From assembly GCF_029937575.1 (NCBI RefSeq), contig NZ_JAPYPS010000013.1, forward strand, positions 1 to 64,000: a stretch of 64,000 nt of DNA, in the 5' to 3' direction. The translations under genes were made by a program, and so were the position numbers. The DNA is from Nocardioides sp. GTDB taxonomy: Bacteria; Actinomycetota; Actinomycetes; Propionibacteriales; Nocardioidaceae. The notes below the pieces were generated by a model. It was given only the letters and a program-made list of their open reading frames with translations. It was not told where the DNA came from and did no database searches. Positions 45,814 through 61,428 of this stretch are shown here, in pieces. Position 1 is the first letter of the stretch, and every line of letters begins with the position of its first letter.

Positions 45814-46953
45814 TCAGACGCCCCAGCGCTCGAGCAGGCGCTCGTAGTAGACCGCCGGTCCGCCGAACATCAGCTGGGACACCTTGGCCCGCCGGAAGTA
45901 GAGGTGGGCCGGGTGCTCCCAGGTGAAGCCGATGCCACCGTGCACCTGGATGGTCTGCTGGGCGATGAACATGAACGCCTCGGAGCAGACGGCGTGTGCG
46001 ACTGCTGCGGCCTCGCCCGCGGGGGGTGCGTCGGGCAGGCCGTCGACGGCGCGGGCGGCCTCGGTCGCAGCGGCTTCGGCGACCTCGAGCCGGGTGAACA
46101 TGTCGGCGCACATGTGCTTGACCGCCTGGAAGGAGCCGATCGGTCGCCCGAACTGCACACGCTGGCGGGCGTAGGCCACGCTCATCTCGAGGCAGGCGCG
46201 GGCCGCTCCGACCTGCTCGGCAGCCAGGGCGGCGGTGGCGCGGTCGAGCAGGTGCTCGAGGGCCGCGGTGCCGTTCCCCGGCCGACCGAGGGCGGCGGCC
46301 GGCGTCCCGGTCAGGGTCAGGCGGCCGACACGACGGGTCGGGTCCAAGGCCCTGAGGCCGGTGACCTCGAGGCCGGCCGCACCCGACTCGACCAGGAACA
46401 GTCCGGGTCCGTGCGGAGTATCGGCGGCGACGACGTAGAGGTCGGCCCCCACGGCGTCGAGCACGAGAGATTTCTCCCCGTCGAGGGTCCACGAAGCCTC
46501 CCCGTCCTCGCGGGCGCGAGTCGTGAACCCGTGGGTGCGCCACTGGCCGTCGGTCTCGATGACCGCGAGCGTCGCGAGGGTGGTGCCTGCGGCGATTCCG
46601 GGAAGGTGCGCGGCCATCGCGGACTCGTCCTGGGCAGCGAGCAGCGCGCCAGCCCCCAGGACGACCGAGGAGAAGAACGGCCCTGGCACGAGGGCACGGC
46701 CGAGCTCACGCAGCGCTACGCCGAGCTCCACCTGACCGAACCCGGCACCCCCGTGATGCTCGGGCACGGCCAGCGACTGCACCCCGACCTGATCGGCGAG
46801 CTGACGCCACACGCTCGCGTCGTAGCCCAGGTCGGACTCCATCACCTCGCGGACCCGCGACTCGTCGGACTTGTCGGCGAGCAGGGACCGCACGGAGAGC
46901 CGCAGGTCCTCCAGCTCCTCGGCGCCGGCGATAGCTGTGGTGGTCACGGTCAT
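45814..46953 (-). CDS. Acyl-CoA dehydrogenase, beta-type
   Basis: The 379-residue ACAD-like protein shows VQSLAVPEHHGGAGFGQVELGVALRELGRALVPGPF, ARQRVQFGRPIGSFQAVKHMCADMFTRLEVAEA and QTIQVHGGIGFTWEHPAHLYFRRAKVSQLMFGG. It lacks the GGTSE loop. It overlaps the longer ACAD 46950 upstream, so the two form an alpha/beta pair. It closely resembles 40792 in layout, indicating duplication of the pair. Confidence 0.88.
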   Translation of the reverse strand: MTVTTTAIAGAEELEDLRLSVRSLLADKSDESRVREVMESDLGYDASVWRQLADQVGVQSLAVPEHHGGAGFGQVELGVALRELGRALVPGPFFSSVVLGAGALLAAQDESAMAAHLPGIAAGTTLATLAVIETDGQWRTHGFTTRAREDGEASWTLDGEKSLVLDAVGADLYVVAADTPHGPGLFLVESGAAGLEVTGLRALDPTRRVGRLTLTGTPAAALGRPGNGTAALEHLLDRATAALAAEQVGAARACLEMSVAYARQRVQFGRPIGSFQAVKHMCADMFTRLEVAEAAATEAARAVDGLPDAPPAGEAAAVAHAVCSEAFMFIAQQTIQVHGGIGFTWEHPAHLYFRRAKVSQLMFGGPAVYYERLLERWGV

Positions 46954-48284
46954 GACTGCTCTCCCGTCGGCGCGCGGAACGGCGCTTTGGTGTCGGTGCC
47001 GGGCTCCTTGGGGAGGCCCAGGACGCGTTCGCCGATGATGTTCTTCATGATCTCCTCGGTGCCGCCCAGGATGCGCAGGGCCGGCGTGCCGAGGAGCAGC
47101 TCGTTCCACGAGAAGGTTCCCCAGTCGCCGGTCTCGGCGATCATCCGCGGGCCCACCATCTCTGCGGCGAGGTGGGAGGCGGCGGCCAGGTTGTGGGAGA
47201 ACATCAGCTTGCTGGCTGATGCCTCCGGTCCCGGCGCGCGCCCGTCGAGCAGGGTGCGCAGGGACTGCTGGTTGAGGTAGCCGGTCGCCGTCAGGTCGGC
47301 CAGCACCTCGGCGAGCCGGCGTCGCGCTGCGGCGTCCCGGGACAGCCCCATCGCCTCCAGCATCGCCGTCAGGTAGGAGCGTGAGACCGCCCGCTCGACC
47401 GGACCGGCACCTTCGCCGCCGACACTGGCCCGCTCGCTCATCAACGTGGTCATCGTGACCCGCCAGCCGTCGTCGACCTCGCCCAGGCGGTGGTCGTCGG
47501 GGACGCGGACGTCGGTCAGGAAGACCTCGTTGAACTCCGCGCCGCCGGTCATCTGGCGCAGCGGCCGCACCTCCACCCCCGGCAGCGACATGTCGACGAG
47601 GAAGGCGGTGATCCCCCGGTGCTTGGGCTGCGACGGGTCGCTGCGACAGACCGCCATCCCGAGCTCGGCGTGGTGCGCTACCGAGGTCCACACCTTCTGG
47701 CCGTTGAGCACCCACTCCTCGCCGTCGCGCACAGCCCTGGTCGCGACGTTGGCCAGGTCGGAGCCGGCGCCGGGCTCGCTGAACAGCTGGCAGGCGATCG
47801 CGTCCCCGCGGAACATCGCAGGTAGGTAGCGCTGCTTGATCTCCTCGCGGGCGTGGGCCAGGATCGTGGGCCCGATCATGCCGAGCCCGATGAGGGAGAT
47901 CACGCCGGTGTCCGGCACGTCGTACCCCGCCTCGAGCTGGTCGTACACCAGGTCGTGCAGGGGGCTGAGCGCGCGGCCGCCGTACTCCGTGGGGCCCGTG
48001 ATCCAGCCGAATCCGTGTTCGTGGCGGGTTCGTTGCCACGCCCGCGCCGCGTCGACCTTCGCCTTGTCGACCTCGGGCGGTTCGTCGCCGAAGTAGGAGA
48101 TCCGGTCCTCGCCCTCGCCCCAGACGACGCGGGCAGTACCGGTGGGCCGCCGGGTGGCGTGCTCGTCGAGGAACGCGCTGGCCTCCTCGACGAAGGCCTC
48201 GATCGAGGACGACGAAGCGGTCGGGGACGACGAAGCGGTCGGGGAGGCCGGGGTGGCCGGTGTGGCAGGTGCGGATGCTGTCAT
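46950..48284 (-). CDS. Acyl-CoA dehydrogenase, alpha-type, with low-complexity N-terminus
   Basis: 444 residues. The first 30 are an Ala/Pro/Ser/Thr stretch (PTASSSPTASSSS) not part of the fold. Then GFGWITGPTEYGGRALSPLHD, IACQLFSEPGAGSDLANVATRAVRDGEEWVLNGQKVWTSVAHHAE, NEVFLTDVRVPDDHRLGEVDDGWRVTMTTLMSERA and LRILGGTEEIMKNIIGERVLGLPKEP are a full ACAD. Partner of 45814. Confidence 0.9.
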   Translation of the reverse strand: MTASAPATPATPASPTASSSPTASSSSIEAFVEEASAFLDEHATRRPTGTARVVWGEGEDRISYFGDEPPEVDKAKVDAARAWQRTRHEHGFGWITGPTEYGGRALSPLHDLVYDQLEAGYDVPDTGVISLIGLGMIGPTILAHAREEIKQRYLPAMFRGDAIACQLFSEPGAGSDLANVATRAVRDGEEWVLNGQKVWTSVAHHAELGMAVCRSDPSQPKHRGITAFLVDMSLPGVEVRPLRQMTGGAEFNEVFLTDVRVPDDHRLGEVDDGWRVTMTTLMSERASVGGEGAGPVERAVSRSYLTAMLEAMGLSRDAAARRRLAEVLADLTATGYLNQQSLRTLLDGRAPGPEASASKLMFSHNLAAASHLAAEMVGPRMIAETGDWGTFSWNELLLGTPALRILGGTEEIMKNIIGERVLGLPKEPGTDTKAPFRAPTGEQS

Positions 48285-48302
48285 GACGTGTCGCTCTCGC
48301 TC

Positions 48303-49241
48303 TCAGGTGGTGACGACGGGGTGCAGGTCTGCGCCGGCGAGCGCGGCAGAACCGACCTCGTCGGCAAGTCGGAGGTGGCCGCCGAGGAGGGCGTCGAGCG
48401 CCGCACCCCGGCTGACGTAGCGGTGCATGTCGCTCTCCAGCGTGATGCCCATCGCACCGAGCACCTGGACCGTGCGGCGCAGCACCGTGGACTGGGTCGC
48501 ACCGGCGCGCAGCTTGGCGACCGTCGCTGCCCAGGCGGCAACGTCCTCGGCGGCACTCCACGCCACGTCCAGGGTGACCCGGGCCGCCTCGAGCGCGGCA
48601 TGCGCCTCGGCGAGCTGGTGTCGCACCGACTGGAAGGACCCGAGCGGCCGGCCGTACTGGTGACGCACGCTGGTGTGTGTGACCGCGAGCTCGAGGGCTG
48701 CCGTGCACACGCCGATGATCTCGGCGGCCAGGGCGCGTCGACCAGTAGCGACGGCGCGTTCCCATGCGGCGCCGACCGGAACGCTGTCGGGCTGGAGCGC
48801 GGCGCCGAGGGTGACGAGCTGCCAGCCCGAGCCCGGGTCGAAGCCGCCGGCAGGACGGGTGACCAGCGAAGAACGCTCGATGGTTGCCAGCACGACGCCG
48901 TCGGGGGTCGCGCGAGGCACCACGACCACCTCGGCCGTCGAGGCGAGCAGGACGCCCGTCGGACCTGGGTGCGAGCCGAGGCGTGGGTGGGGTAGCAGCA
49001 GGGTGTGTGTCCCGGGGGCGTAGCCCGGGAGCTCGGCCAGCATGGTGTCGGCCAGCAGGCCGCTGGAGGCCAGGGCTCGTCCTTGTTCGCCGAAAAGCAC
49101 GGTGGTGGCGATGGACGGGTCCTCCTCGAGGACCTCGGCCCAGCCCAGCTCGTCGAGCGCTGGGGCCACCGGCCGTCCTGTGGCGAAGACTTCGCGCAGC
49201 GAGCCGCGCACAACCTCGACGGTGGCGTCGTCCAGGCTCAT
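48303..49241 (-). CDS. Acyl-CoA dehydrogenase-like, beta-type, short
   Basis: 312 residues, with a compact N-terminal domain and the ACAD C-terminal helical core (TSVRHQYGRPLGSFQSVRHQLAEAHAALEAARVTL, QVLGAMGITLESDMHRYVSRGAALDALLGG). No GGTSE loop. It overlaps the 49238 alpha ACAD by four bases, so it is the beta subunit of a third pair, similar in build to 37271. Confidence 0.82.
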   Translation of the reverse strand: MSLDDATVEVVRGSLREVFATGRPVAPALDELGWAEVLEEDPSIATTVLFGEQGRALASSGLLADTMLAELPGYAPGTHTLLLPHPRLGSHPGPTGVLLASTAEVVVVPRATPDGVVLATIERSSLVTRPAGGFDPGSGWQLVTLGAALQPDSVPVGAAWERAVATGRRALAAEIIGVCTAALELAVTHTSVRHQYGRPLGSFQSVRHQLAEAHAALEAARVTLDVAWSAAEDVAAWAATVAKLRAGATQSTVLRRTVQVLGAMGITLESDMHRYVSRGAALDALLGGHLRLADEVGSAALAGADLHPVVTT

Positions 49242-50452
49242 CGCGACGACTCCTGGGGCAGGCCGAGCACGTGGTCGGCGAGGATGGTGCGCTGGACCTC
49301 AGCGGAGCCGCCGAGGATCGTGGAGGACCGGCTGTACCACCACTCGGCTCGCCAGGCTGTGGAGTCGAGTGCGTGCGGGTCCTGGGGATCGGCCAGAAGG
49401 AAGTCGGCGCCGAGCGCGTCGCGGGCCAGGTCGTGCAGACCGGTCTCGACCGTGGCGAGGAGGATCTTGTCGACACTGGCCTCCGGCCCGACGGTGTCGC
49501 CTGCGGCGAGGCGGCGGATCGTGGCGGCCGAGCGCGAGCGGAGCGTGACGATGTCGGCGTACGTCGACCCGAGACGGCTCGTGGTCCCGTCCGGCAGCGG
49601 GGTGCCCGACGAAGCCAGTCGGTCGCGCAGGTCGCGCAGTCGCCGCAGGGCGATCCCGGCGCTCTGCCAGGCGAACATCGAGCGCTCGAACTGCAGGAGG
49701 TACATCGCCACCGCCCAGCCCTGGTCCTCTGCACCGATCGCTCGCGAGAGGGGCACGCGGACATCGTCGAAGAAGACCTCGGAGACCTCCTCCTGGCCAC
49801 TGGCCAACGCAACCGGACGTCGGGAGACACCGGGCGCGTCGGCGTCGATCATCAGCATGGTCAGCCCGCGGTGGCGCGCCTCCGGTGTCCCGGTGCGCAC
49901 CAGGCACACGAAGCGGTGGGCCGTGGCTCCGAAGCTCATCCAGAGCTTCTGACCGGACACGACGTAGTGGTCGCCGTCGCGCCGTGCCCGGCACCGCAGG
50001 GCGGCCAGGTCGCTTCCCGCCTCGGGCTCGGAGAAGCCCTGCCCCCACCACTGCGCGCCGGTGAAGAGTGCCGGCATCACCTCCGCGGCCAGGGTGGGGG
50101 CGAAGTGCACCACCGGGTTGCCCAGCGTCTCGAGCACCAGGCACTGGTCGGGCACCGGGAGTCCGGCGCTCGACAGCTCGTCGTAGAGCGCGGCGCGGTG
50201 GCGGGGGTCGCCGCCGAGTCCGGCCGGCTCGGGCCATCCGTACCGCGTCCAACCGCCGTCGTCGTGCAGGGCTCGCAGGAGGGCTGCGTGGTGGTGGTTG
50301 CGCTCCGCGACCGTCATCGGCTCGTGGCCGCGCCACCGGTCGTAGTCCGCTGAGTTGTCGGCCAGGTGCTCGCGCAGGGCCAGCGCGTAGGCAACGGGGT
50401 CGACAGCGAGCTCCGCGGCTCGGGGGCCGAGAGGTGCTGTCGAGGTGCTCAT
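49238..50452 (-). CDS. Acyl-CoA dehydrogenase, alpha-type
   Basis: 404 residues from ATG 50452; the track extends the frame to 51019 through the opposite reading of the crotonase gene. Features: WWGQGFSEPEAGSDLAALRCRARRDGDHYVVSGQKLWMSFGATAHRF, SEVFFDDVRVPLSRAIGAEDQGWAVAMYLLQFERS and TILGGSAEVQRTILADHVLGLPQ. Alpha partner of 48303. Confidence 0.88.
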   Translation of the reverse strand: MSTSTAPLGPRAAELAVDPVAYALALREHLADNSADYDRWRGHEPMTVAERNHHHAALLRALHDDGGWTRYGWPEPAGLGGDPRHRAALYDELSSAGLPVPDQCLVLETLGNPVVHFAPTLAAEVMPALFTGAQWWGQGFSEPEAGSDLAALRCRARRDGDHYVVSGQKLWMSFGATAHRFVCLVRTGTPEARHRGLTMLMIDADAPGVSRRPVALASGQEEVSEVFFDDVRVPLSRAIGAEDQGWAVAMYLLQFERSMFAWQSAGIALRRLRDLRDRLASSGTPLPDGTTSRLGSTYADIVTLRSRSAATIRRLAAGDTVGPEASVDKILLATVETGLHDLARDALGADFLLADPQDPHALDSTAWRAEWWYSRSSTILGGSAEVQRTILADHVLGLPQESSR

Positions 50453-51246
50453 GCCGAGGCCGCGCTCTTCTGCTTGCTCCGCTCGAGGAACGAAGTGACC
50501 AGAGCCTGGTGCTCGGAGGTGTCGAAGGACTTGAACTCCTCCGACAGGGCGTACTCGATGACGCCGCTGATCGCCCGCTCCAGGTGCATGTTCAAGGCTC
50601 GCTTGGTGCTCTGGATCGCCTGCGGGGGTTGGGCCGCGAGCCGCTCGGCGACCTTCACGGCCTCGGCGAGCAGGTCGGCGTCGGGCACCATCCTCGTCGC
50701 GAGGCCCAGCTCCACCGCGGTGGCGGCTGGAATGCGCTTGCTGGTCAGCAGGTATTCCTTGGCGCGCAGCATGCCCATGAGGAGCGGCCACGTGGGCGCC
50801 CCGCCGTCGGCGGCGGTGAGCCCGACACCGACGTGCGGATCCTGCAGGAACGCCGACTCGGCGATGAGGACGACGTCGCTGCTGGCGGCGAGATTGCACC
50901 CCAGTCCGACGGCAGGCCCGTTGACCGCCGCGACCAGAGGCAACGGGAACGCGAGGATCTCGCGAAGCAGCTGGCCGGCGCCGTCGATCTCCTTCTGCCG
51001 GCTCGCCGGGTCGTTCCACAGCTCGACGAAGTGCTCCATGTCACCACCGGCGCTGAAGGCGCGGCCGGCTCCGGTCAGGACGACGGCGCGTGCGTCCGGG
51101 TCGGCTGCGAGATGCTTCCAGACCCCGATGAGCGCTCCGTGCAGGGCCTCGTTCGTGGCGTTCATCGCCTCGGGGCGGTTGAGTGTCACGAGGCGCACGG
51201 CGCCGATCTCCTCGATCAGCAGCTCGGGTGCGAAGGGGTGATCCAT
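50449..51246 (-). CDS. Enoyl-CoA hydratase/isomerase family protein
   Basis: The 265-residue crotonase shows AVVLTGAGRAFSAGGDMEHFVE (oxyanion, about residue 60), LVAAVNGPAVGLGCNLAASSDVVLIAESAFLQDPHVGVGLTAADGGAPTWP and the C-terminal helices. The second hydratase Glu position is Ala-Asp-Gly, so it may be an isomerase or accept a special substrate. It heads the leftward block 45814-51246; the island palindrome F is upstream. Confidence 0.87.
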   Translation of the reverse strand: MDHPFAPELLIEEIGAVRLVTLNRPEAMNATNEALHGALIGVWKHLAADPDARAVVLTGAGRAFSAGGDMEHFVELWNDPASRQKEIDGAGQLLREILAFPLPLVAAVNGPAVGLGCNLAASSDVVLIAESAFLQDPHVGVGLTAADGGAPTWPLLMGMLRAKEYLLTSKRIPAATAVELGLATRMVPDADLLAEAVKVAERLAAQPPQAIQSTKRALNMHLERAISGVIEYALSEEFKSFDTSEHQALVTSFLERSKQKSAASA

Positions 51247-51286: not shown

Positions 51287-51328
51287 AGTCCAACGTCAAT
51301 TGACGAATCTGTCAAGTGACGTTAGCGT
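51287..51328. promoter_or_regulatory. Island palindrome and divergent promoters
   Basis: TTGACGAATCTGTCAA at 51300-51315 matches 11 of 12. Rightward: TTGACG, 17 bp, TAGCGT (51323-51328). Leftward: TTGACA (51315-51310), 17 bp, TGGACT. An extra half-site makes CGTCAATTGACG at 51294-51305, and AACGTCA/TGACGTT arms flank the whole. Clear divergent control region. Confidence 0.75.
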
Positions 51329-51384: not shown

Positions 51385-52350
51385 GTGAGCGTTGGGGTGA
51401 AGGTCGAAGCGGTCGCCGATCCCGGGACGACGCACGGCCTGCTGGCCGGTCGGGTCGTCCTGGTGACGGGCGGTGGTCGCGGTATCGGGCGCTCTCACTG
51501 CCTCGAGCTGGCACGACACGGCGCCACGGTCGTGGTCAACGACCTCGGTGTCGGCCTCGGCGGGGAGGACTCGGAAGAGGATCCCGCGACCGAGGTCGTG
51601 TCCGAGATCGAGGCAGCCGGTGGCAGCGCCATCGCGGTCGGCGGCTCCGTCAGCGACTGGACGGCGATGGCAGACCTGGTCGGCCACGTCGTGGCGAACC
51701 ACGGGCAAATCGACGCTGTCGTCAACAATGCCGGGATCTTGCGCGACAAGACCATCACCTCGATGGACGAGCGCGACTGGGACGCCGTCGTCGACGTCCA
51801 CCTCAAGGGCACTTTCACGCTGACCAAGCACCTGTGCGACCACTGGCGCGCCGAGCACCGGGCGGGGCGCCCGGTCGCTGCCCGGATCGTCAACACCACC
51901 TCCGGCACCGGGTTGGCCGGCAACGTCGGCCAGGCGGCGTACGGCGCCGCCAAGGCCGCTATCGCGAACCTCACCATCACCTCGGCCCTGGAGGGCACCC
52001 GCTACGGGATGACCGCCAACGCGATCTCGCCGGTCGCCGCGACGCGGATGACCGCGAGCGTAGGAATCGACGCCGGCGGCCGCGATGGCTTCGACCGGCT
52101 CGACCCTGCGAACTCGTCCCCGGTGGTCGCCTGGTTGTGCTCGGAGCAGTCGGGATGGCTCACCGGGCAGGTGCTCCGCATCGACGGTGGCACCGTCCAC
52201 CCGGTGCGCGGATGGTCTGTCCAGGAGGGCTATCGGGCCCAGGGTGGGTCACGTCTGGAGGCGCAAGAGCTCGACGCCGGCCTCCGTCGCACGCTCGGCG
52301 TGCTGCCCCCGGGCCTCGCCGGCCTCGTCGCTCCGGGCGGTGCCCGATGA
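51385..52350 (+). CDS. SDR family dehydrogenase (multifunctional enzyme 2 type)
   Basis: 321 residues from GTG 51385, behind GGGAG. Rossmann start VVLVTGGGRGIGRSHC (about residue 25), NDLGVGLGGEDSEEDPA as in 17beta-HSD4/MFE-2 dehydrogenases, VVNNAGILRDKTI and catalytic YGAAKAAI (Tyr about residue 185). Oxidises a 3-hydroxyacyl-CoA or a sterol-like hydroxyl with NAD. It is first in the rightward block to 59275; its stop overlaps the next start. Confidence 0.88.
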   Translation: MSVGVKVEAVADPGTTHGLLAGRVVLVTGGGRGIGRSHCLELARHGATVVVNDLGVGLGGEDSEEDPATEVVSEIEAAGGSAIAVGGSVSDWTAMADLVGHVVANHGQIDAVVNNAGILRDKTITSMDERDWDAVVDVHLKGTFTLTKHLCDHWRAEHRAGRPVAARIVNTTSGTGLAGNVGQAAYGAAKAAIANLTITSALEGTRYGMTANAISPVAATRMTASVGIDAGGRDGFDRLDPANSSPVVAWLCSEQSGWLTGQVLRIDGGTVHPVRGWSVQEGYRAQGGSRLEAQELDAGLRRTLGVLPPGLAGLVAPGGAR

Positions 52351-53549
52351 GTCACCTCGCCGCCCTCGGCACCTACCTCCCCACCTGGGGCGAGGAGCAG
52401 GATCGCCGACCCGGCCCCGACGAGGACGCGGTGACCCTGGCCGTTGCAGCGGGCCGCGCAGCCCTCGGCTGCCTCGACGAGCCGGACGTCGACCAGGTGG
52501 TGCTGGTCTCACGCGACCTGCCGCTGCTCGAGGGTGGCAACGCCGCGGCGCTGCTGGCGGGTCTGGGCCTACCGGCGGACCTCCCGGTGACCGAGCAGGT
52601 GGGCGGGTGCCCTGCCACGCTCGACGTGCTCACCGCCGCGGCACCGGGCACCCTCGTCCTGGCAGCCGATCTGGCACCCGCCGGGGCAGCGGCCGCCCTT
52701 GTGGGTGCCGATGGGCTCGAGGTGCTGCCGTGCGCCCGTCGGGTGGGCAGCTTGCCCGTCCAGAGTCGCGGCAGGGACGGTGTCGCGCGCGACTACGAGG
52801 ACGCCCGGCTCGGCTGGGACCGTGGCGGCTTGGCCGCGGTGAGCGCCCTCGATCTTGCTGAGAAGCCGGTCGTGGTGGCCGGCGCCACTGCTCGCCAGGC
52901 CGGTGTCCTCACCCAGGGACCTGCCCCCGCGCTGCCGGTCACCGGTGCCAGCGCTGCACTGTTCGCGCTCGCCGCGCTCGCCGACCTCGGGGAGACCGGT
53001 GTCGCAGTCGCCGTCGAGCAGGCCTCCGCCACCGCCGTACGCACCGGCCGCGGCACGACCCGCCTCTGCCTGGCCCGCGACGAGCCAGCCGCGCAGTCAC
53101 CTGCCACGCTGCGTGAGACACCCGGCCCCGAGATCGCGATCTCGCTGGCGGCCTACGCCCGTGCCTTCGACGCCAAGCTGCGGTGGGAGGCCGGCGCGTG
53201 CGACGCCTGCGGCACCCTCGCGCTCCCGCCCCGGCTGCGCTGTCTCGAGTGCGGCTCCGAGGAGGGATGGTCGCTCGCCCCGCTGCCCCGCACCGGCTCG
53301 GTCTACACCGCGGTCACCGTGCACGTCCCCGTGCCCGGGCTGCCGACGCCCTACTCGTTGGCGATCGTCGAGCTCGACGGGGTCGACGTCCGCGCGCTGG
53401 TCAAGGTCACCGGTGCACCCGCCGGTGGCACCGCGATCGGCGACCGAGGCCGCCTGGTGCTGCGCCGGGTGGCGCTGCGATCGGGCATCCCCGACTACGG
53501 CTACGCGCTGCTGCCCATCGACACCGATCCGACAACGGAGGACATCTGA
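52347..53549 (+). CDS. HMG-CoA synthase-like / DUF35 (zinc ribbon + OB) fusion
   Basis: 400 residues. The first 260 form a degenerate thiolase/HMG-CoA synthase fold (LAALGTYLPTWG, GGCPATLDVLTAAAPGTLVLAADLAP, GASAALFALAALADLG). The last 120 are DUF35: zinc ribbon CDACGTLALPPRLRCLECG (about residue 283) and OB fold (GSVYTAVTVHVPVPGLPTPYSLAIVELDG). The two parts usually occur as separate chains in the thiolase-DUF35 systems; here they are covalently joined. Probably a scaffold or active partner for thiolase 53549. Confidence 0.8.
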   Translation: MSHLAALGTYLPTWGEEQDRRPGPDEDAVTLAVAAGRAALGCLDEPDVDQVVLVSRDLPLLEGGNAAALLAGLGLPADLPVTEQVGGCPATLDVLTAAAPGTLVLAADLAPAGAAAALVGADGLEVLPCARRVGSLPVQSRGRDGVARDYEDARLGWDRGGLAAVSALDLAEKPVVVAGATARQAGVLTQGPAPALPVTGASAALFALAALADLGETGVAVAVEQASATAVRTGRGTTRLCLARDEPAAQSPATLRETPGPEIAISLAAYARAFDAKLRWEAGACDACGTLALPPRLRCLECGSEEGWSLAPLPRTGSVYTAVTVHVPVPGLPTPYSLAIVELDGVDVRALVKVTGAPAGGTAIGDRGRLVLRRVALRSGIPDYGYALLPIDTDPTTEDI

Positions 53550-54709
53550 TGAGGCGCGTAGCGATGGTCGGGGCTGGGATGACCGAGTTCAAGGAGCACT
53601 TCGACCTCGGCATCAAGGAGCTCGTACCGATGGCCGTCTCCGAGATGGCTGCCTCGGTCGACAAGGGCCTGGACCGCTCCGACATCGAGGCGGCGTGGTT
53701 CGGCGAGCTCACCACCAGCGACGGCTTCCCGGCCGGCATCCTGGCCGACAGCTGCGGACTGCTCGACATCCCCGTCACCCGGGTCGAGAACGCCTGCGCG
53801 ACCGGCAACGACGCCGTGCGCAACGCGATGTACGCCGTGGCATCGGGCATCGTCGACGTCGCCCTGGTCGTGGGGGCCGACAAGGTGCGTGAGTCGTCCT
53901 CGCGCAGCACGTTCTGGGAGTGGGCGGCGCTCACGCGCGACGTGGCGTGGGACTATCCCCTCGGCCTGGTCGCGCCTGCCAACTTCGCCCTCCACGCCGC
54001 CCGCTACCTGCATGAGTCGGGCGCCACTCGTGAGCACATGGCGATGGTCGCAGTGAAGAACCACCGTCACGCCCTGACCAACCCCAAGGCGCAGCTTCGC
54101 TTCGAGATCACCGTCGAGCAGGTCCTGCGCGCGCCGACGGTGGTCGAACCGTTCGGCCTCTACGACTGCACGCCGCAGAGTGACGGCGCCGCTGCGGTCC
54201 TCCTCGTCTCCGAGGAGGTGGCCGACCGCTACACCGACCGGCCGGTGTGGGTGCGCGGCGTCGGGCTCGGCCTCGACCGGGTGATGCACCAGCACAAGCA
54301 GGACATGACCTCCTTCCCCCCGACCGTGAAAGCGGCCCGGGCCGCCTACGCGATGGCCGGGATCGGGCCCGCCGACATTGACGTGGCCGAGGTGCACGAC
54401 TGCTTCAGCGCCGTCGAGCTGATCAGCTACGAGGACCTCGGGTTCTGTGACAGGTTCGGTGCGGCCGCGCTCGTCGAGAGCGGCGCCACGACGTTCGAGG
54501 GGAGTCGGCCGGTGAACCTCAGCGGTGGGTTGAAGGCCAAGGGGCACCCGCCGGGTGCTACGGGCGTCTCGCAGAACGTCGAGCTCTTCGAGCAGCTTCG
54601 TGGCGACGCGCACAACCAGCTCGACACACCGACGTACGCGCTCGCGCACAACATCGGCGGGCCGACGGCCGTCTCCGCCGTGACGATCCTCAGCACGGAG
54701 AAGGACTGA
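53549..54709 (+). CDS. Thiolase family protein (acetyl-CoA acetyltransferase type)
   Basis: The 386-residue thiolase fold keeps the nucleophile (ENACATGNDAVRNAMYAVASG, about residue 87) and the GHP His (NLSGGLKAKGHPPGATGVSQ); EVHDCFSAVE supplies the third region, as in SCP-x thiolases. It therefore should be an active 3-ketoacyl-CoA thiolase, perhaps for branched substrates. It is bracketed by two DUF35 modules with one-base overlaps. Confidence 0.87.
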   Translation: MRRVAMVGAGMTEFKEHFDLGIKELVPMAVSEMAASVDKGLDRSDIEAAWFGELTTSDGFPAGILADSCGLLDIPVTRVENACATGNDAVRNAMYAVASGIVDVALVVGADKVRESSSRSTFWEWAALTRDVAWDYPLGLVAPANFALHAARYLHESGATREHMAMVAVKNHRHALTNPKAQLRFEITVEQVLRAPTVVEPFGLYDCTPQSDGAAAVLLVSEEVADRYTDRPVWVRGVGLGLDRVMHQHKQDMTSFPPTVKAARAAYAMAGIGPADIDVAEVHDCFSAVELISYEDLGFCDRFGAAALVESGATTFEGSRPVNLSGGLKAKGHPPGATGVSQNVELFEQLRGDAHNQLDTPTYALAHNIGGPTAVSAVTILSTEKD

Positions 54710-55185
54710 TGGCCCAGACCTACACCCGCCCCGACTTCCGGCTCACCCCTACGCCCGAGGGCGATGACGTCGCCTTCTGGACCGGCGGCGAGGACGACCG
54801 GCTGATGGTCCACCGGTGTCGCAGCTGTGAGCAGTACTTCCATCCGCCGGCGCCCGCGTGCTTCCGGTGCCGCAGCCGTGACGTCGCCTCGGAGCCGGTC
54901 AGCGGACGCGGCCGGGTCGCCACGTTCACCGTCAACCGCCAGCCGTGGTTGCCGACCCTTCCGCCCCCCTACGTGATCGTGCTGGTCGAGCTCGAGGAGC
55001 AGCCCGACGTCCGGATCTTCAGCCAGCTGGTCGACGTCGACCCCGCGGAGGTCCGGATCGGCGACGAGGTCGAGGTGTTCTTCGAGCACTGGGCCCCCGA
55101 GGGCGGCACCGAGGTGTGGCTGCCGCTCTTCCGCCCGGTGCCGCCCTCGGTCGACGCGGCGACGGTTCCGGGGGAGGAAGCATGA
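54709..55185 (+). CDS. DUF35 zinc-ribbon/OB-fold protein
   Basis: 158 residues with the zinc ribbon (CRSCEQYFHPPAPACFRCRS, four Cys at about residues 40-58) and OB fold (GRGRVATFTVNRQPWLPTLPPPYVIVLVELEEQPDVRIFSQLVD, GDEVEVFFEHW). By analogy with the ChsH2 DUF35 domain it should hold the neighbouring Ltp2-like protein. The start overlaps the thiolase stop, and its stop overlaps the 55182 start. Confidence 0.87.
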   Translation: MAQTYTRPDFRLTPTPEGDDVAFWTGGEDDRLMVHRCRSCEQYFHPPAPACFRCRSRDVASEPVSGRGRVATFTVNRQPWLPTLPPPYVIVLVELEEQPDVRIFSQLVDVDPAEVRIGDEVEVFFEHWAPEGGTEVWLPLFRPVPPSVDAATVPGEEA

Positions 55186-56381
55186 GCGGCGGTCCCTTCG
55201 ACGGCAAGGCCGTGATCACCGGCGCCGGCAAGTCCCAGGTCGGCCGCAGGCTGATGCGCGGCGGTCTCGACCTGACCCTCGAGGCATCTCTGCGGGCGAT
55301 CGCCGACGCCGGGCTCACCCCCGACGACATCGACGGGGTCGCAAGCTACCCCGGCCCCGGGGCGCCGCAGCGGGGCTTCTCCGGCGCCGACGTGCACGAG
55401 GTCCGCAACGCCCTGGGCCTGCGGACGTCGTGGTACATGAGCGGGATCGAGACTGCCGGGCAGATCGGGCCCGTCATCGAGGCTTGCATGGCGGTCACCC
55501 TCGGCTTCGCCAACCACGTCCTGGTCTTCCGGTCGGTCTGGGAGTCCACCGCACAGGCGGATGGCGGCCGCGCCTCGGTGCTCTTCGACGGGGGGAAGCT
55601 GCCCCCGCACATGGCCTGGACAGCCCCCTTCGGTGCGCTCTCGCCGGCCAACTGGCTCGCCCTGCCCGCGCAGCGCTACATGCACGACCACGGCCTCACC
55701 CGGGAACACCTGGGCACGGTCGCGCTGACGGCGCGTCGCCACGCGGCGCTCAACCCGGACGCGGTCTTCCGTGACCCGCTGAGCATGGAGGACTACCTCG
55801 GTGCGCGGATGATCTCCGAGCCCTTCGGTCTCTACGACTGCGACGTGCCCTGTGACGGGGCCACCGCGGTGATCGTGTCGAGGCGTGATGCTGCGGCCGG
55901 CTTGCCGCGGCATCCGCTCACCGTCGAGTCAGCTGGCACCGGCATGTTCGAGCGCGCCACGTGGGACCAGCGGATCGATCTGACCACGATGGCCGCGCAC
56001 GACGCGGCCGCCACGCTGTGGGACCGGACGACGCTGACACCCGCCGACGTGGACGTGGCCCAGCTCTACGACGGTTTCACCTTCTTGACGGTGCAGTGGC
56101 TCGATGCGCTCGGCTTCGCCGCGCACGGCGAGGTCGGCGCACTCCTCGAGGACGGCGCACTCCTCGCTCTGGACGGGGACCTCCCGCTCAACACCTCCGG
56201 TGGGCAGCTCTCGGGTGGCCGGCTCCACGGGATGGGCTTTCTCCACGAGGCGTGCGTGCAGCTCTGGGGCGAGGGCCAGGAGCGCCAGGTTGGGGGTGCG
56301 GTGGGGTCACGTCCCGACGTCGCGGTCGTCGCCGTCGGTGGAGGGCCTGTGGCCGGGGCGATGCTCCTGAGTCATGGCTGA
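55182..56381 (+). CDS. Ltp2-like thiolase-fold protein, probable acyl-CoA retro-aldolase
   Basis: 399 residues. The nucleophile position reads GIETAGQIGPV with no Cys. Ltp2-like features are RYMHDHGLTREHLGTVALTARRHAALNPDAVFRDPLSMEDYLGARMISEPFGLYDCDVPCDGATAV, AQLYDGFTF and LNTSGGQLSGGRLHGMGFLHEA. Ltp2 cleaves a 3-hydroxyacyl-CoA C-C bond in cholesterol side-chain removal and needs a DUF35 partner; both are present side by side here. The start at 55182 overlaps the DUF35 stop. Confidence 0.8.
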   Translation: MSGGPFDGKAVITGAGKSQVGRRLMRGGLDLTLEASLRAIADAGLTPDDIDGVASYPGPGAPQRGFSGADVHEVRNALGLRTSWYMSGIETAGQIGPVIEACMAVTLGFANHVLVFRSVWESTAQADGGRASVLFDGGKLPPHMAWTAPFGALSPANWLALPAQRYMHDHGLTREHLGTVALTARRHAALNPDAVFRDPLSMEDYLGARMISEPFGLYDCDVPCDGATAVIVSRRDAAAGLPRHPLTVESAGTGMFERATWDQRIDLTTMAAHDAAATLWDRTTLTPADVDVAQLYDGFTFLTVQWLDALGFAAHGEVGALLEDGALLALDGDLPLNTSGGQLSGGRLHGMGFLHEACVQLWGEGQERQVGGAVGSRPDVAVVAVGGGPVAGAMLLSHG

Positions 56382-56889
56382 GCCACGCATCGACCTCACC
56401 GACGTGAGCTCGGCCGGTGGCGCGCTCGTCGTCCCAGGCCTGGAGGGCCTCCGTGGGATCGTCGGGCGCGAGCTGGGCCCGACCGCGTGGCTGACGGTCG
56501 ACCAAACGCGCATCGACGGCTTCGCCGACGACACCATGGACCACCAGTGGATCCACGTCGATCCGATCCGTGCGGCCGAGGGCCCGTTCGGGGCGCCGGT
56601 CGCCCACGGGCTGTTGACGCTGTCGCTGGTGCCGTACTTCGTCAACCAGCTGCGACGCTTCGACGGGGCATTGATGGGAGTCAACTACGGGCTCGACCGG
56701 GTCCGGTTCCCCAGCCCGGTCCTAGCCGGTAGTCGGGTGCGAGCCCGGATGACCGTGACCGGGCTGGACGAGCTGTCGTCGAGCTCGGCTCAGTTCGTGA
56801 CCCGGGTCGTTGTCGAGGTCGAGGGCGGCGCCAAGCCTGCGTGCGTCGCCGACCTGGTGTCGCGCTATCACTTCGAGGAGAGTCGATGA
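56374..56889 (+). CDS. MaoC family enoyl-CoA hydratase
   Basis: The 171-residue hotdog protein shows the hydratase motif FADDTMDHQWIHVDPIRAAEGPFGAPVAHGLLTLSL (Asp/His catalytic pair near residue 52) and NYGLDRVRFPSPVLAGSRVRARM. It hydrates the enoyl-CoA made by the ACADs, giving the 3-hydroxyacyl-CoA that the Ltp2-like enzyme could cleave. Overlaps both neighbours. Confidence 0.88.
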   Translation: MAEPRIDLTDVSSAGGALVVPGLEGLRGIVGRELGPTAWLTVDQTRIDGFADDTMDHQWIHVDPIRAAEGPFGAPVAHGLLTLSLVPYFVNQLRRFDGALMGVNYGLDRVRFPSPVLAGSRVRARMTVTGLDELSSSSAQFVTRVVVEVEGGAKPACVADLVSRYHFEESR

Positions 56890-58505
56890 GCGAGTCGACC
56901 AGGGGTTCGTGGCCGTGGATGATCGAGGCCGACACGGTGCTTCAGCTGCTCGAGCGGCGGGCCGCGCTTACGCCGGACGCCCTGGCTCTCCTCGACGAGG
57001 AGGGCCGGAGGGTGACCTGTCGGCAGCTCCTCGGCATGGTCGAGCAGTACGCGGCGCTGCTCGCGGAGCTGGGGATCGAGTCCGGGACCCGCGTGGCGTG
57101 GCAGCTCCCGACCAGGATCAGCACGTACGCCGTCATGCTCGCGCTGCGTCGGCTGGGCGCCGTGCAGGCGCCCATCATCCCGCTCTACCGCGAGCGTGAG
57201 GTGACGGCCTGCCTCGCGGCGGTCGAGGCCGAGCACTTCCTCGTGCCCGGCACCTGGAAGGGACACGACTTCGTCGCCATGGCGGAGCGTCTGGACCTCC
57301 CGGAGCGCGTGCGCCCCCGAGTGATCGTCATCGATCTCGACCCGACCGGCGCCGATCACGAGGTGGCCACGGTGACGACACCGGCGGCTGACCCCGACGA
57401 CGTCCGGTGGATCTATTTCACCTCGGGCTCCTCGGGCATGCCTAAGGGAGTGCGTCACACCGACGACAGCCTGCTGACCGGCGGCCTCGGCTTCGCCGGG
57501 AGGGGGCGGCTCGGAGCCGAGCCCGACGAGCTCGCGGCTGCCGCGTTCCCCATCGCCCACGTCGGAGGAGTCCTCTACCTCATCGCAGCGCTCGGCGGTG
57601 GCTACCCGATCCTCCTCCAGGAGGCCTTCGTGCCGGGGCCGGCGGCGGAGGCGATGCACATGCACGGCGTCACCGTCACCGGAGGCGCTCCTCCCTTCTA
57701 CCAGGCGCTCGTGGCCCTGGCGCAGGACGCTGGCGTGCAGCCGTTCCTTCCGTCGCTGCGCGTGCTCAAGGGAGGGGGCGCGCCCTGCTCGGTCGAGCTG
57801 TTCGAGCAGGTGCGTGACGTCCTCGGGACCGTCGTGGCCCACGACTACGGGATGACCGAGGTCCCGATGATCGCGGCAGGTGACCCGCACGACCCCGGTG
57901 ACCTCCTTGCACGGACCGATGGGGGCGTCGTGCCTGGGAACGAGGTGCGCGCAGTGGGTCCCTCCGGTGAGCCGCTGCCGTCTGGCGAGTCCGGTGAGCT
58001 GCAGGTCAGCGGACGGGGGGTCTGTCGTGGTTACCTGGATCACTCCGAGACCGAACGCGCTTTCACCGCCGACGGTTGGTTCCGCACCGGCGACCTGGGC
58101 ATCGTCCACGACAGCGGTCACGTCGAGGTGGTCGGACGGTTGAAGGACGTGATCATCCGCAAGGGCGAGAACCTCGTCCCGTTCGAGATCGAGCTGGTTC
58201 TCGGCACCTTCCCCGGTGTGGCCGAGGTGGCAGTGGTAGGGCTGCCCGACGAGGAGCGCGGCGAGCTCGTGTGCGCCGTCGTCGCCGTCCGTCCGGGCCA
58301 CCCCCGTCCGAGCCTGGTCGACCTCGCCGAGCACCTTGCCGCCGCGGGACTCATGCGGCAGAAGTGGCCCGAGCGGCTCGAGGTCGTCGACGAGCTGCCG
58401 CGCACCGGTCTGGCGAAGGTCGCCAAGGCCGAGCTCAAGCGCCGGTTCGGCGCTCCTGAAACTCCTCCGGCGACCGTCGGAGCAACCGAGAGGAACCACG
58501 CATGA
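56886..58505 (+). CDS. AMP-binding acyl-CoA synthetase
   Basis: 539-residue adenylate-forming ligase: P-loop YFTSGSSGMPKGVRH (about residue 176), YGMTEVPM (about residue 320), GWFRTGDLG (about residue 397), LKDVIIRKGENLVP hinge and the catalytic Lys in RTGLAKVAKAEL. Activates a carboxylate to its CoA thioester. Substrate not predictable. Probably supplies the pathway with acyl-CoA from imported acid. Confidence 0.9.
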   Translation: MSESTRGSWPWMIEADTVLQLLERRAALTPDALALLDEEGRRVTCRQLLGMVEQYAALLAELGIESGTRVAWQLPTRISTYAVMLALRRLGAVQAPIIPLYREREVTACLAAVEAEHFLVPGTWKGHDFVAMAERLDLPERVRPRVIVIDLDPTGADHEVATVTTPAADPDDVRWIYFTSGSSGMPKGVRHTDDSLLTGGLGFAGRGRLGAEPDELAAAAFPIAHVGGVLYLIAALGGGYPILLQEAFVPGPAAEAMHMHGVTVTGGAPPFYQALVALAQDAGVQPFLPSLRVLKGGGAPCSVELFEQVRDVLGTVVAHDYGMTEVPMIAAGDPHDPGDLLARTDGGVVPGNEVRAVGPSGEPLPSGESGELQVSGRGVCRGYLDHSETERAFTADGWFRTGDLGIVHDSGHVEVVGRLKDVIIRKGENLVPFEIELVLGTFPGVAEVAVVGLPDEERGELVCAVVAVRPGHPRPSLVDLAEHLAAAGLMRQKWPERLEVVDELPRTGLAKVAKAELKRRFGAPETPPATVGATERNHA

Positions 58506-59275
58506 AGCTGACTAATACGTCGACCATCGTGACCGGGGGTGCCGGCGGCCTCGGCGAGGCCGTGGTGCGTGCCGTCGTCGCGGCCGGCGGGCACGCGGTG
58601 ATCGCTGACCTGGCCGACGCCAAGGGCGAGGCCCTCGCCGTCGAGCTCGGCGACGCCGTTCGCTACGTGCGCACCGACGTGCTCGACGACGACACCGTGC
58701 GGGGCGCCATCGCCGCCGCTGGCGAACTGGCCCCGCTGCGGTACGCCGTCACTGCGCACGGTGGGTGGGGGGTGGCGGAGAAGATCGTCCAGCGCGACGG
58801 CTCGCCCGCCGGGCTCGAGGGCTTCACCAAGACCCTCGATCTGTATCTCACCGGCACCTACAACGTCCTACGCCTCACGGCCGCTGCGATTGCGACGAGC
58901 GAGCCGGACACTGAGGACGGTCAGCGAGGCGCTGTCGTCACTACGGCCAGCATCGCCGCGTACGAGGGTCAGATGGGTCAATCGGCGTACGCCGCTGCCA
59001 AGGCCGGGGTCGCCGGCCTCACCCTGGTGGCGGCTCGCGACCTCGCTGCGGTCGGCATCCGGGTCGTCTGTATCGCCCCCGGCACGATGCGGACCCCCAT
59101 CATGGAGTCGGTCGGTGAGGAGATGATCGAGAAGTTCGGTGCGGCAGTGCCGTTCCCGAAGCGGTTGGGCCGTCCTGGCGAGTTCGGCGACCTCGCCGTG
59201 CACGCCTTGACCAACACCTACCTCAACGGCGAGACCATCCGACTCGACGGGGCGCAACGCTTCCAGCCGCGTTGA
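58502..59275 (+). CDS. SDR family 3-hydroxyacyl-CoA dehydrogenase-like protein
   Basis: 257 residues: TSTIVTGGAGGLGEAVVRAVVAAGG (Rossmann), VTAHGGWG, TTASIAAYEGQMGQSAYAAAKAGVAGLT with catalytic Ser/Tyr/Lys, and IAPGTMRTPI. The layout is that of HSD17B10-type (3-hydroxy-2-methylbutyryl-CoA) dehydrogenases, which act on branched acyl-CoA and steroids. Last gene of the 51385-59275 block; convergent with tetR. Confidence 0.87.
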   Translation: MKLTNTSTIVTGGAGGLGEAVVRAVVAAGGHAVIADLADAKGEALAVELGDAVRYVRTDVLDDDTVRGAIAAAGELAPLRYAVTAHGGWGVAEKIVQRDGSPAGLEGFTKTLDLYLTGTYNVLRLTAAAIATSEPDTEDGQRGAVVTTASIAAYEGQMGQSAYAAAKAGVAGLTLVAARDLAAVGIRVVCIAPGTMRTPIMESVGEEMIEKFGAAVPFPKRLGRPGEFGDLAVHALTNTYLNGETIRLDGAQRFQPR

Positions 59276-59296: not shown

Positions 59297-59989
59297 TCAT
59301 GACTGGTCGTGGTCGCGGCCGCCGAGGATGTCCATGATCGAGTGGGCGATGGTCAAGATCATGTCGTCGTCGCTGACCGGCAAGGCCTGGGCGCGCACGA
59401 AGAACCAGGAACGGTCGAGCATCGCGATCACCATCAGCCCCAAAGCCTCGGGTGCCGGGGTGGGAGAGGGTTGGCGCGAGCGAAGCGCCACCCCGAAGAG
59501 GAACGCGGCGCGCATCTGCATCCGGCGGGCCTGCTGCCGGTAATCGTCCTCCCCGTCCTTGGGAACGAATTGGCTGGCCGAGAACACGAATGCGCCGTGG
59601 CGGTCCATGTACCGGAAGTATTGGTGCACCCAGTCCACGATCTCGTCGAGCTGCGCCGGGCGGCTGATCCGGTCCCACTCGCCGAGCACCCCGAGGATGT
59701 CGGCGTAGGCCGACTCACCTAGGACATTCGCGATCGCGCGCTTGTCCTTGAAGTAGGTGTAGAAGCCAGCACGCGAGATCCCGCACGCGTCGGTGATGTT
59801 GTTGATGCGGGTGCCGGCATAACCGCGTTCGAGGAAGAGCTGCCGAGCCGCATCGATGATGGTCTGGCGTGTGCGCAGCGCCCGCAAGCCGAGGCCGCCG
59901 TCCTCGTCGTCCGGTTCGACGGCGGGGGGGTCGGTCGCGTCGACGTCGGGATGGGGGGCAGCGTCCTCCGCAGTCTCGCTGGTGGTCAT
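59297..59989 (-). CDS. TetR family regulator, candidate controller of the island
   Basis: 230 residues from ATG 59989; the track start at 60049 adds an unlikely leader. After an acidic N-terminal tail (PAVEPDDEDGG) the TetR HTH is RQTIIDAARQLFLERGYAGTRINNITDACGISRAGFYTYFKDKRAIANVL (residues 43-92), then a helical ligand domain. It is divergent from the 60214 amidohydrolase; a perfect palindrome and a degenerate one (GTGACGGGTTCGTTGA, 60055-60070) lie between. Presumably ligand is an acyl-CoA of the pathway; inference only. Confidence 0.88.
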   Translation of the reverse strand: MTTSETAEDAAPHPDVDATDPPAVEPDDEDGGLGLRALRTRQTIIDAARQLFLERGYAGTRINNITDACGISRAGFYTYFKDKRAIANVLGESAYADILGVLGEWDRISRPAQLDEIVDWVHQYFRYMDRHGAFVFSASQFVPKDGEDDYRQQARRMQMRAAFLFGVALRSRQPSPTPAPEALGLMVIAMLDRSWFFVRAQALPVSDDDMILTIAHSIMDILGGRDHDQS

Positions 59990-60144
59990 GGTCCTCGATC
60001 CGGTGCGCGCAGTGGCTGGTCGCCACGCCTGGTCATGTGTCGACCCCATGTTATGTGACGGGTTCGTTGACGCTCGTTCAGATCGTCGAACCGGCCCGAT
60101 GGCAGTCCTCCAGTGTGGTCACAGAAGTGGGCGGACCGGCTTTG

Positions 60145-60173
60145 TTGACGCTTTCGTCAAACACGTCTAGGTT
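60145..60173 (+). promoter_or_regulatory. Perfect island palindrome and promoter of the 60214 operon
   Basis: TTGACGCTTTCGTCAA (60145-60160), 12 of 12. TTGACG as -35, 17 bp spacer and TAGGTT (60168-60173) as -10 give a promoter with start point about 34 bases before ATG 60214. The palindrome covers the -35 and spacer, as expected for repression. Confidence 0.8.
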
Positions 60174-60213
60174 GAGGGCTCCAACGACTGCGCGACCGCG
60201 AGAGGAACGGGTC

Positions 60214-61428
60214 ATGACCACGTTCACCGATGTGCCGATCTTCGATGCCGACACCCACATGTACGAGACCACCGAGGCGCTCACGAAGTTCCTCCCGGAG
60301 AAGTACAAGTCGGCCGTCCAGTTCATCCAGGTGGGTCGTCAGACCCGCATCTCGATCCTGGGCAAGATCCGCGACTACATCCCCAACCCGACGTTCGACA
60401 GGGTGGCAGCGCCCGGCGCCTGGGAGAAGTTCTTCGCCGGCCAGAACGAGGAGGGGCGCTCCCTGCGCGAGATGGCGGTGGAAAAGTCGATGGACTCGAT
60501 CCCAGCCTTCCGGGAGCCGGGTCCACGCCTGGAGGCGATCGACGCCCAGGGCGTCGACGAGGCCATCGTCTACCCGACGCTGGCCAATCTCGTCGAGGCC
60601 TCGGCCAGCGAGGACCCCGAGCTCTGCTCGGCGATGATCCACGCTCTCAACCGCTGGATGCTCGAGACCTGGGGATTCACCCACGCCGACCGCCTCTTCA
60701 TGACCCCGGTGATCAACCTGGGCCAGCTCGACGAGGGCCTGAAGGAGCTGGAGTACGTTCAGGAGAACGGTGCGAAGGTCATCTTGATCAAGCCGTCGCC
60801 GGTCAAAAACTGGAAGGGCTGGCGCTCGCCCGCACTGCCCGAGTTCGACCCGTTCTGGCGCGAGGTCGAGGCCAGCGGCATGCCCGTCGTCCTGCACGCA
60901 AGCCAGCCGCCGCTCGACTCCTACATCAACATGTGGGAGCCGCCCAACAGCCAGGTGTTCACCGAGATGAGCGCCTTCCGCTGGATCGCGCTCGGCCACC
61001 GCGAGATCACCGACATGTTGACCAGCCTCATCACCCACGGCACCCTGACGCGCTTCCCCAAGCTGCGTATCGCCAGCGTCGAGAACGGCAGCTCGTGGCT
61101 CCACCCGCTCTTCGACGACTTCGAGCTCTACTACAAGAAAATGCCGCAGGCATTCCCCGAGCACCCCATCGACGTCTTCCGTCGTAACGTGTGGATCAGC
61201 CCGTTCTGGGAGGGCTCGGTCGAGGACGTCGTGGAGACCGTCGGCTGGGACCGCGTCATGTTCGGCTCGGACTTCCCGCATCCGGAGGGCCTCGAGGAGC
61301 CCAAGGGGATCTTCCGTTACAACGAAGAGGACCTCAGCGAGAAGCGGATGTACGACTTCATGGGTGACAACGCCCGGCGGTTCCTGGGTCTGCCCGTGCG
61401 CAACCCCGCCGAGATGGTGCCCGCCTGA
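60214..61428 (+). CDS. Amidohydrolase_2 family metal-dependent hydrolase
   Basis: 404 residues opening VPIFDADTHMYETTEALTKFLPEKY (metal Asp-x-His). Later: IDAQGVDEAIVYPTLANL, MPVVLHASQPP, ASVENGSSWLHPLFDDFELYYKK and VMFGSDFPHPEGLEEP (metal/catalytic Asp). It is a distant paralogue of 34558. Probably a ring or ester hydrolase or decarboxylase. RBS GAGAGGAACGGG. Its stop overlaps the next start by one base. Confidence 0.82.
   Translation: MTTFTDVPIFDADTHMYETTEALTKFLPEKYKSAVQFIQVGRQTRISILGKIRDYIPNPTFDRVAAPGAWEKFFAGQNEEGRSLREMAVEKSMDSIPAFREPGPRLEAIDAQGVDEAIVYPTLANLVEASASEDPELCSAMIHALNRWMLETWGFTHADRLFMTPVINLGQLDEGLKELEYVQENGAKVILIKPSPVKNWKGWRSPALPEFDPFWREVEASGMPVVLHASQPPLDSYINMWEPPNSQVFTEMSAFRWIALGHREITDMLTSLITHGTLTRFPKLRIASVENGSSWLHPLFDDFELYYKKMPQAFPEHPIDVFRRNVWISPFWEGSVEDVVETVGWDRVMFGSDFPHPEGLEEPKGIFRYNEEDLSEKRMYDFMGDNARRFLGLPVRNPAEMVPA

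Follow-up and report, generated by a model that had tools for sequence, protein, structure and literature searches.

In several described systems, DUF35 proteins accompany enzymes of the thiolase fold. The aldolase Ltp2 acts with the DUF35 domain of ChsH2 (ChsH1-ChsH2 in the M. tuberculosis igr operon; T. curvata structure 6OK1) and uses Tyr294 as base, His296 in the oxyanion hole and Tyr344 as acid, and the bile acid aldolase Sal-Shy of C. testosteroni (9MYR) has catalytic Tyr302 and Cys304 (PMC12329534). The archaeal acetoacetyl-CoA thiolase system (6ESQ) brings a thiolase, an HMGS fold and DUF35 together, and the Friedel-Crafts acyltransferase PhlACB (5M3K) combines a DUF35 protein (PhlB) and a working thiolase-like protein (PhlC) with the HMGS-like PhlA, which is inert, misses the HMGS Cys and Glu and has no direct catalytic part (PMC6392133). 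Benzoylsuccinyl-CoA thiolase, BbsAB (7PXP), pairs DUF35 with a thiolase for a bulky branched 3-ketoacyl-CoA and has short-chain dehydrogenase (SDR) partners. Here we describe an operon of eight genes that appears to unite aldolase-type and thiolase-type parts. It lies in Nocardioides sp., a soil actinobacterium closely related to Nocardioides cremeus, on positions 1-64000 of contig C82 (NZ_JAPYPS010000013.1; this 64-kb stretch is hereafter the window); the genome is 4.35 Mb, and searches across it were limited to families, proteins and patterns. The reading that we favor, with moderate confidence, is that the operon belongs to an island under its own regulation and that it supplies two C-C-cleaving complexes for degrading a bulky, probably alicyclic or terpenoid, acid as CoA thioesters.

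The eight genes are real coding genes. All lie on the plus strand, with overlaps of 1-8 bases at 7/7 junctions (Table 1), codon-position GC favors coding for most of them, and a metagenome-assembled genome (MAG) from another genus of the family, Marmoricola (G114:C158), carries all eight in the same order at 59-86% identity, a synteny that rules out open reading frames arisen by chance. A Pfam scan recovered the two SDRs, the thiolase, MaoC and the AMP-binding ligase, as well as OB_ChsH2_C with zf-ChsH2 in two proteins; in the Ltp2-like protein, thiolase-C was the sole domain matched. The start of SDR1 is a GTG at 51385 or at 51397, the MaoC protein retains its Asp/His pair in an alignment of orthologues, and the top NCBIfam model for the ligase is a cyclohexanecarboxylate-CoA ligase, with a score well under cut-off. 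The HMGS-DUF35 protein is 99% identical to the copy in N. cremeus SOB44. An initial sequence-only reading of the window, which had recognized eight mostly overlapping genes of these families and an active-looking thiolase, is borne out on both points, the HMGS part by predicted structure only.

Gene content, pairings, active-site residues and the distribution of the operator can be read directly from sequence, and the pairings assign the HMGS-DUF35 protein to the thiolase. The SCP2-type active site of the thiolase is complete (nucleophilic Cys in ENACATG, HDCF, GHP), and its best solved match is the archaeal acetoacetyl-CoA thiolase. Of 217 relatives found, 80 loci were kept, to which the pairing and neighbor counts refer. 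The thiolase gene lies immediately downstream of the HMGS-DUF35 gene in 80/80, with 3-281 bases between the matched parts, and because of this adjacency we group the HMGS-DUF35 protein with the thiolase, not with the aldolase-like protein. Its HMGS half gave no Pfam match. Predicted structure alone supports a KAS-III/HMGS fold for residues 1-250 (blocks mostly at a predicted local distance difference test of 65-96), with matches that include archaeal HMGS (6et9_I), 9skh, 9vbo and PhlA-type chains (best Foldseek E about 1e-10). The protein is probably not a working HMG-CoA synthase, a role that was rejected as the domain is short (about 250 aa against 347) and the catalytic Cys position holds Cys in the window copy only, with Ala or Gly in all relatives aligned (among the rows listed). 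The protein is probably a scaffold subunit of the thiolase. The pair resembles the 6ESQ system, from which it differs in its short, DUF35-fused HMGS part, which lacks the catalytic Cys in the relatives aligned, and in its catabolic setting, and PhlACB, from which it differs in the fusion of the A and B parts, in a thiolase nearer to CoA thiolases and, again, in being catabolic. PhlACB-type parts (HMGS-like, DUF35, thiolase) are all adjacent, by gene position, in 80 loci. A viral scan with HMGS-DUF35 as query gave no relatives, and no function for the pair was found in the literature searched.

In Mycobacterium/Nocardiaceae loci the thiolase pair lies near genes for CoA-transferase (66/80), aldehyde dehydrogenase (64/80) and P450 (57/80), the last with P450cin as best PDB match in Mycobacterium/Nocardia relatives. 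An Mce importer follows the pair in about 25 mycobacterial loci. In L084 (10001-15304), as in further Mycobacterium loci, the pair stands behind genes for aldehyde dehydrogenase and CoA-transferase and directly ahead of the importer, a layout that suggests an import-and-degradation unit, and a Mycobacterium branderi plasmid carries the pair with acyl-CoA dehydrogenase (ACAD) genes, a CoA-transferase-like gene and an Mce set. The thiolases of L084 (11274-12443), other Mycobacterium, Nocardia and Gordonia keep the nucleophilic Cys and have HDFF or HDYF for HDCF. HMGS-DUF35 proteins of the Mycobacteriaceae group have lost the zinc-ribbon Cys residues in the rows listed.

The Ltp2-like protein and its DUF35 neighbor are nearest to the two chains of the T. 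curvata complex. As in Ltp2, the nucleophilic Cys is absent, the GHP region is shortened, the base Tyr294 is kept and MaoC is nearby. Unlike Ltp2-ChsH2, the operon has YDGF for YDHF (His296 to Gly) and Arg for Tyr344, its DUF35 protein is not fused to MaoC, and it is joined to the thiolase/HMGS-DUF35 pair and has no KstR box. YDG and Arg are uniform over a clade of 35 aligned rows, and the genome's own Ltp2, on contig C83, has both YDHF and Tyr. On NF005892, the NCBIfam model that contains Ltp2 (cut-off 469 bits), the Ltp2-like protein scores 259 and the genome's own Ltp2 689. In a tree that flagged long branches and did not include Sal sequences, the Ltp2-like clade stands apart from Ltp2 (99/94), and the genome's own Ltp2 groups with that of T. 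curvata (100/99). Sal-Shy is likewise a distinct DUF35-dependent clade with a changed acid residue, but its YDCY motif, Gln352 for Tyr344 and C3H1 zinc site differ from the YDGF (no Cys), Arg and C4 of the operon; the C4 ribbon, C-x2-C-x10-C-x2-C, is retained in the DUF35 orthologues aligned. The DUF35 and Ltp2-like parts form one protein in 24 loci (Nocardia, Rhodococcus, Williamsia, Aldersonia and Gordonia, of the Nocardiaceae/Gordoniaceae), and the two are therefore directly linked. These natural fusions (L106 1261-2964 and 23 other loci) are good expression candidates.

On this fold and these residues, aldol cleavage by the Ltp2-like protein is plausible. We consider it rather unlikely that the protein is instead another thiolase-fold enzyme (a decarboxylase, lyase or hydrolase) or a structural subunit, with C-C cleavage wholly thiolytic. 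The lost His296 and Tyr344 equivalents, the Arg at the acid position, the score under the Ltp2 subfamily cut-off and the occurrence of the thiolase pair without an Ltp2-like protein in some relatives would fit such a role, but the base Tyr, the Ltp2-like absence of Cys and shortened GHP region, the canonical C4-zinc partner with its natural fusions and the adjoining MaoC gene in the window argue for an aldolase, and Sal demonstrates that the acid residue can change with the reaction unchanged (PMC12329534).

We regard the operon as two joined units, one thiolytic (thiolase and HMGS-DUF35) and one putatively aldolytic (DUF35 and Ltp2-like protein), because Frankia, Tomitella and M. branderi carry them apart. 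Frankia has SDR1-HMGS-THL-SDR2 and Tomitella HMGS-THL-MaoC-ligase (THL, thiolase), both with no DUF35/LTP2 in between, and M. branderi has the Ltp2-like protein (78-80% identity) in a separate cluster, alongside genes for an OB-fold protein, aldehyde dehydrogenase and CaiB. The sequence-only reading had instead seen a possible aldolytic side-chain module, built around the set used for aldol cleavage in steroid side-chain degradation, with HMGS-DUF35 as a member. DUF35, Ltp2-like protein and MaoC do form an aldolase-type set, but the Ltp2-like protein is without two of the three Ltp2 residues and falls short of the family score; HMGS-DUF35 has its place beside the thiolase; and the module is neither single, as Frankia and Tomitella illustrate, nor self-contained, since it sits in a larger co-regulated island.

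The Frankia arrangement also resembles BbsCD plus BbsAB, given the roles that we take the Bbs genes to have. A pathway of the aromatic-acid or benzylsuccinate type would have the thiolase pair, the two SDRs and CoA-transferase III take the roles of BbsAB, BbsCD and BbsEF, with a 2-substituted succinyl-CoA-like compound as the intermediate; a PaaA-type oxygenase does lie downstream. The BbsA and BbsB models match both DUF35 proteins and the thiolases, all under cut-off (BbsA 36 and 33 of 250 bits, BbsB 195 of 750 bits). We judge this pathway improbable, for the thiolase is nearer to the archaeal enzyme (1.6e-64) than to BbsB (6.8e-52), solved BbsAB structures contain no HMGS-like partner, and the PaaA region is unmatched in the Marmoricola stretch compared.

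The distribution of a presumed operator suggests that the island is regulated separately. An inverted repeat in the spacer between SDR1 and the divergent enoyl-CoA hydratase (ECH) gene was the starting point for a palindrome, TTGAC-N6-GTCAA, of which the whole genome holds five exact copies, 5/5 in the island (26310, 33129, 51300, 60145, 62215); the reversed-pattern control has no copy in the whole genome. When at most one mismatch is tolerated, 10 sites lie in the window against 0.56 expected, a count reached by no shuffle; the additional sites include ones before AMH1/ACAD (35809, 36138) and before a CoA-transferase (38516), and two of the 10 are intragenic (62215 in an ACAD gene, 51710 in SDR1). 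An exact palindrome lies directly upstream of SDR1 or HMGS in 13/13 group-1 loci (L052-L062, L065, L066: Nocardioides, Marmoricola, Pseudonocardia, Frankia, Tomitella, Knoellia and two further MAGs), and in Marmoricola the sites recur at corresponding places. The TetR-family protein encoded at 59297 is the likely regulator of the island, presumably acting at TTGAC-N6-GTCAA, because of its position next to the palindrome at 60145; its adjacency to AMH2 is conserved in relatives.

Steroid genes are found elsewhere in the genome. The sequence-only reading saw no steroid ring genes, which is right within the window and wrong for the genome as a whole, and its proposed search of the flanking genome for kshA located KshA on contig C95 (1.4e-83). 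The same contig has a FadA5-family steroid thiolase (683 bits, cut-off 515), the true Ltp2 is on C83, and three groups of Mce genes are on C75 and C83. Matches to CoA_trans in the genome are limited to two neighboring frames on C1 and one longer frame on C25, among which IpdAB and 3-oxoacid CoA-transferases are indistinguishable. KstR-type boxes, with the motif taken as TNNAACNNGTTNNA, number three in the C95 stretches sampled and two in that of C83. The operon is not a free-standing steroid side-chain module, and our estimate for such a module was lowered since the canonical steroid genes are on other contigs and their regulation is separate. Least probable of the alternatives, and quite doubtful, is that the operon acts as an additional side-chain module for steroids (sterols or bile acids), for instance those with C24-branched or C5 side chains. 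In its favor, the solved homologues nearest to the DUF35/Ltp2-like pair are ChsH2-DUF35/Ltp2, the genome does hold steroid genes, Mce porters adjoin the thiolase pair in mycobacteria and the M. neoaurum HBC operon, outside the main sterol cluster, has a stand-alone DUF35 (ChsH4) beside the aldolase Atf1 (PMC10398937). That operon contains aldolase, DUF35, ChsE6 dehydrogenase/reductase and regulator KstR3, with no thiolase/HMGS pair reported. Against a steroid module, neither KstR-type nor KstR2-type boxes occur in the 64-kb window, the island has an operator confined to itself, the acid and oxyanion residues of Ltp2 are missing from the Ltp2-like protein, and the additional ACAD, CoA-transferase and amidohydrolase sets alongside suggest a longer pathway. 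The guess that the module serves a different, non-steroid substrate is thus supported, because both the canonical steroid genes and the operator are separate.

Under the two-complex reading, control would come from the island's own TetR-type regulator, matched to TTGAC-N6-GTCAA operators, and not from the steroid regulator KstR. The ligase or a CoA-transferase would convert the free acid to its CoA thioester, the ACAD pairs would introduce a double bond, and ECH or MaoC would hydrate it, MaoC turning an alpha,beta-enoyl-CoA into a beta-hydroxyacyl-CoA. In a Claisen-type, thiolytic complex, the SDRs would oxidize the 3-hydroxyacyl-CoA, and the 3-ketoacyl-CoA would be split by the thiolase, held by an inert HMGS-fold-DUF35 subunit. 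Where the hydroxylated carbon cannot become a ketone, the aldolytic complex of Ltp2-like protein and DUF35 would perform a retro-aldol split to a ketone or aldehyde and an acyl-CoA, with the Tyr of YDGF as base and the Arg at the Tyr344 position as the probable anchor of the enolate or of a substrate carboxylate. The acid so degraded is probably bulky and alicyclic or terpenoid.

Several points weigh against this reading. We infer TetR binding to the palindrome from position alone, and the exact copy at 62215, being intragenic in an ACAD gene, may be no operator. The literature searched yielded no description of a YDG/Arg-clade enzyme, for which reason we infer aldolase activity from the fold. 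As a general acid Arg is poor, and the reaction could therefore differ. Unlike in the Nocardia and Mycobacterium relatives, no aldehyde dehydrogenase adjoins the module in the window. The branched-chain-amino-acid-type importer points to a substrate that is smaller or more polar than that of the Mce-linked relatives.

Table 1. Positions in the window of the operon genes, the presumed operators and other features of the island
Feature	Position	Strand	Evidence
SDR1 short-chain dehydrogenase	51385..52350	+	Pfam adh_short 2.9e-41; 71% identity in Marmoricola
HMGS/KAS-III-fold domain (predicted) and DUF35 (zinc ribbon and OB fold) in one protein	52347..53549	+	DUF35 by Pfam
THL, SCP2-type thiolase	53549..54709	+	6esq_A 1.6e-64; ENACATG, HDCF, GHP motifs
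DUF35, C-x2-C-x10-C-x2-C zinc ribbon, predicted partner of Ltp2-like protein	54709..55185	+	6ok1_B ChsH2 DUF35 1.1e-18
Ltp2-like aldolase candidate, YDG...Arg clade	55182..56381	+	6ok1_A Tc Ltp2 1.7e-55
MaoC hydratase	56374..56889	+	Pfam MaoC 4.3e-25; Asp/His conserved (DHQWIHVD)
Acyl-CoA ligase	56886..58505	+	AMP-binding 9e-66; TIGR03208 298.6 of 792 bits
SDR2 short-chain dehydrogenase	58502..59275	+	Pfam adh_short 2.3e-28; 83% identity in Marmoricola
Palindrome TTGACGAATCTGTCAA, presumed TetR-type operator, ECH/SDR1 divergent spacer	51300..51315	.	One of 5 exact genome copies
Palindrome TTGACGCTTTCGTCAA between TetR and amidohydrolase	60145..60160	.	Same place in Marmoricola, Tomitella, Knoellia
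ECH, divergent from operon, common operator spacer	50449..51246	-	PF00378 1.9e-47; 80% identity in Marmoricola
Two ACAD pairs (45814/46950, 48303/49238)	45814..50431	-	Family matches, Marmoricola comparison
Island upstream half: ACAD pair, CoA-transferase III, glyoxalase-like, ACAD, DUF35/thiolase-like pair, ACAD, 4-hydroxybutyrate CoA-transferase-like	36147..45807	+	
Branched-chain-amino-acid-type ABC importer	26421..31186	+	Pfam; exact palindrome upstream at 26310
TetR-family regulator (true start may be further in)	59297..60049	-	PF00440 3.1e-14; beside AMH2 in relatives
Amidohydrolase_2 protein	59869..61428	+	PF04909 5.9e-26; 4dzi_A 1e-70

The operon is part of a larger co-regulated island (about 20-65 kb; the dedicated island is about 40 kb). 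The Marmoricola MAG has a matching gene set at about 20-65 kb, with partly rearranged edges, and is the one additional genome with a full-length HMGS-DUF35 protein among 150 searched in the family; the distribution of the island is therefore patchy. Beyond the operon, the island holds four ACAD pairs, with one member IpdE2-like (206 of 450 bits), two Amidohydro_2 proteins, a luciferase-like oxidoreductase and a classical thiolase. The true start of the amidohydrolase beside TetR is probably near 60.2 kb because the match begins at residue 118, and the exact palindrome at 62215-62230 sits within the ACAD gene at 61428-62582. The second DUF35/thiolase-like pair (41916-43510) has its nucleophilic Cys (FTGCASG), with QDTD in place of HDCF and GEP in place of GHP, an unusual chemistry that seems conserved because identity is 80% in Marmoricola and about 83% in Tomitella. 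In two open reading frames at 20215-22534, of uncertain start, an ECH domain and an incomplete CoA-transferase III domain cover only a portion of the frame, and at the start of the contig a Fic/DOC family protein (2375-3574) has a DUF222 protein close by. Past the window, at about 65954-69840 of the contig (L004 1954-5840), is a PaaA-family oxygenase subunit (TIGR02156, 491 bits, cut-off 280), beside a second PaaA_PaaC protein, a flavin/2Fe-2S reductase, a CoA ligase and an SDR, which together look like a reduced phenylacetyl-CoA-epoxidase-like set.

A pathway with the gene set of this operon was not found described in the literature searched. It is conceivable, though we propose it only tentatively, that DUF35-dependent C-C lyases of the thiolase fold have a third class, to which the Ltp2-like protein belongs (Tyr and Arg, beside Tyr/Tyr in Ltp2 and Tyr/Cys in Sal), and that this protein works alongside a widespread actinobacterial thiolase with an HMGS-fold scaffold as constant partner, in an undescribed pathway for non-steroid polycyclic or terpenoid acids. 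At least 80 actinobacterial loci contain the thiolase/HMGS-DUF35 pair, which directly adjoins an Mce importer in many mycobacteria, and the operator offers a direct route to the inducer and hence to the substrate. Steroid aldolases are wanted as biocatalysts, with only two active-site solutions, Ltp2 and Sal, found described; if the proposal is true, a conserved third arrangement, together with the natural DUF35 fusion, would allow testing of how the fold shifts between thiolytic and aldolytic cleavage.

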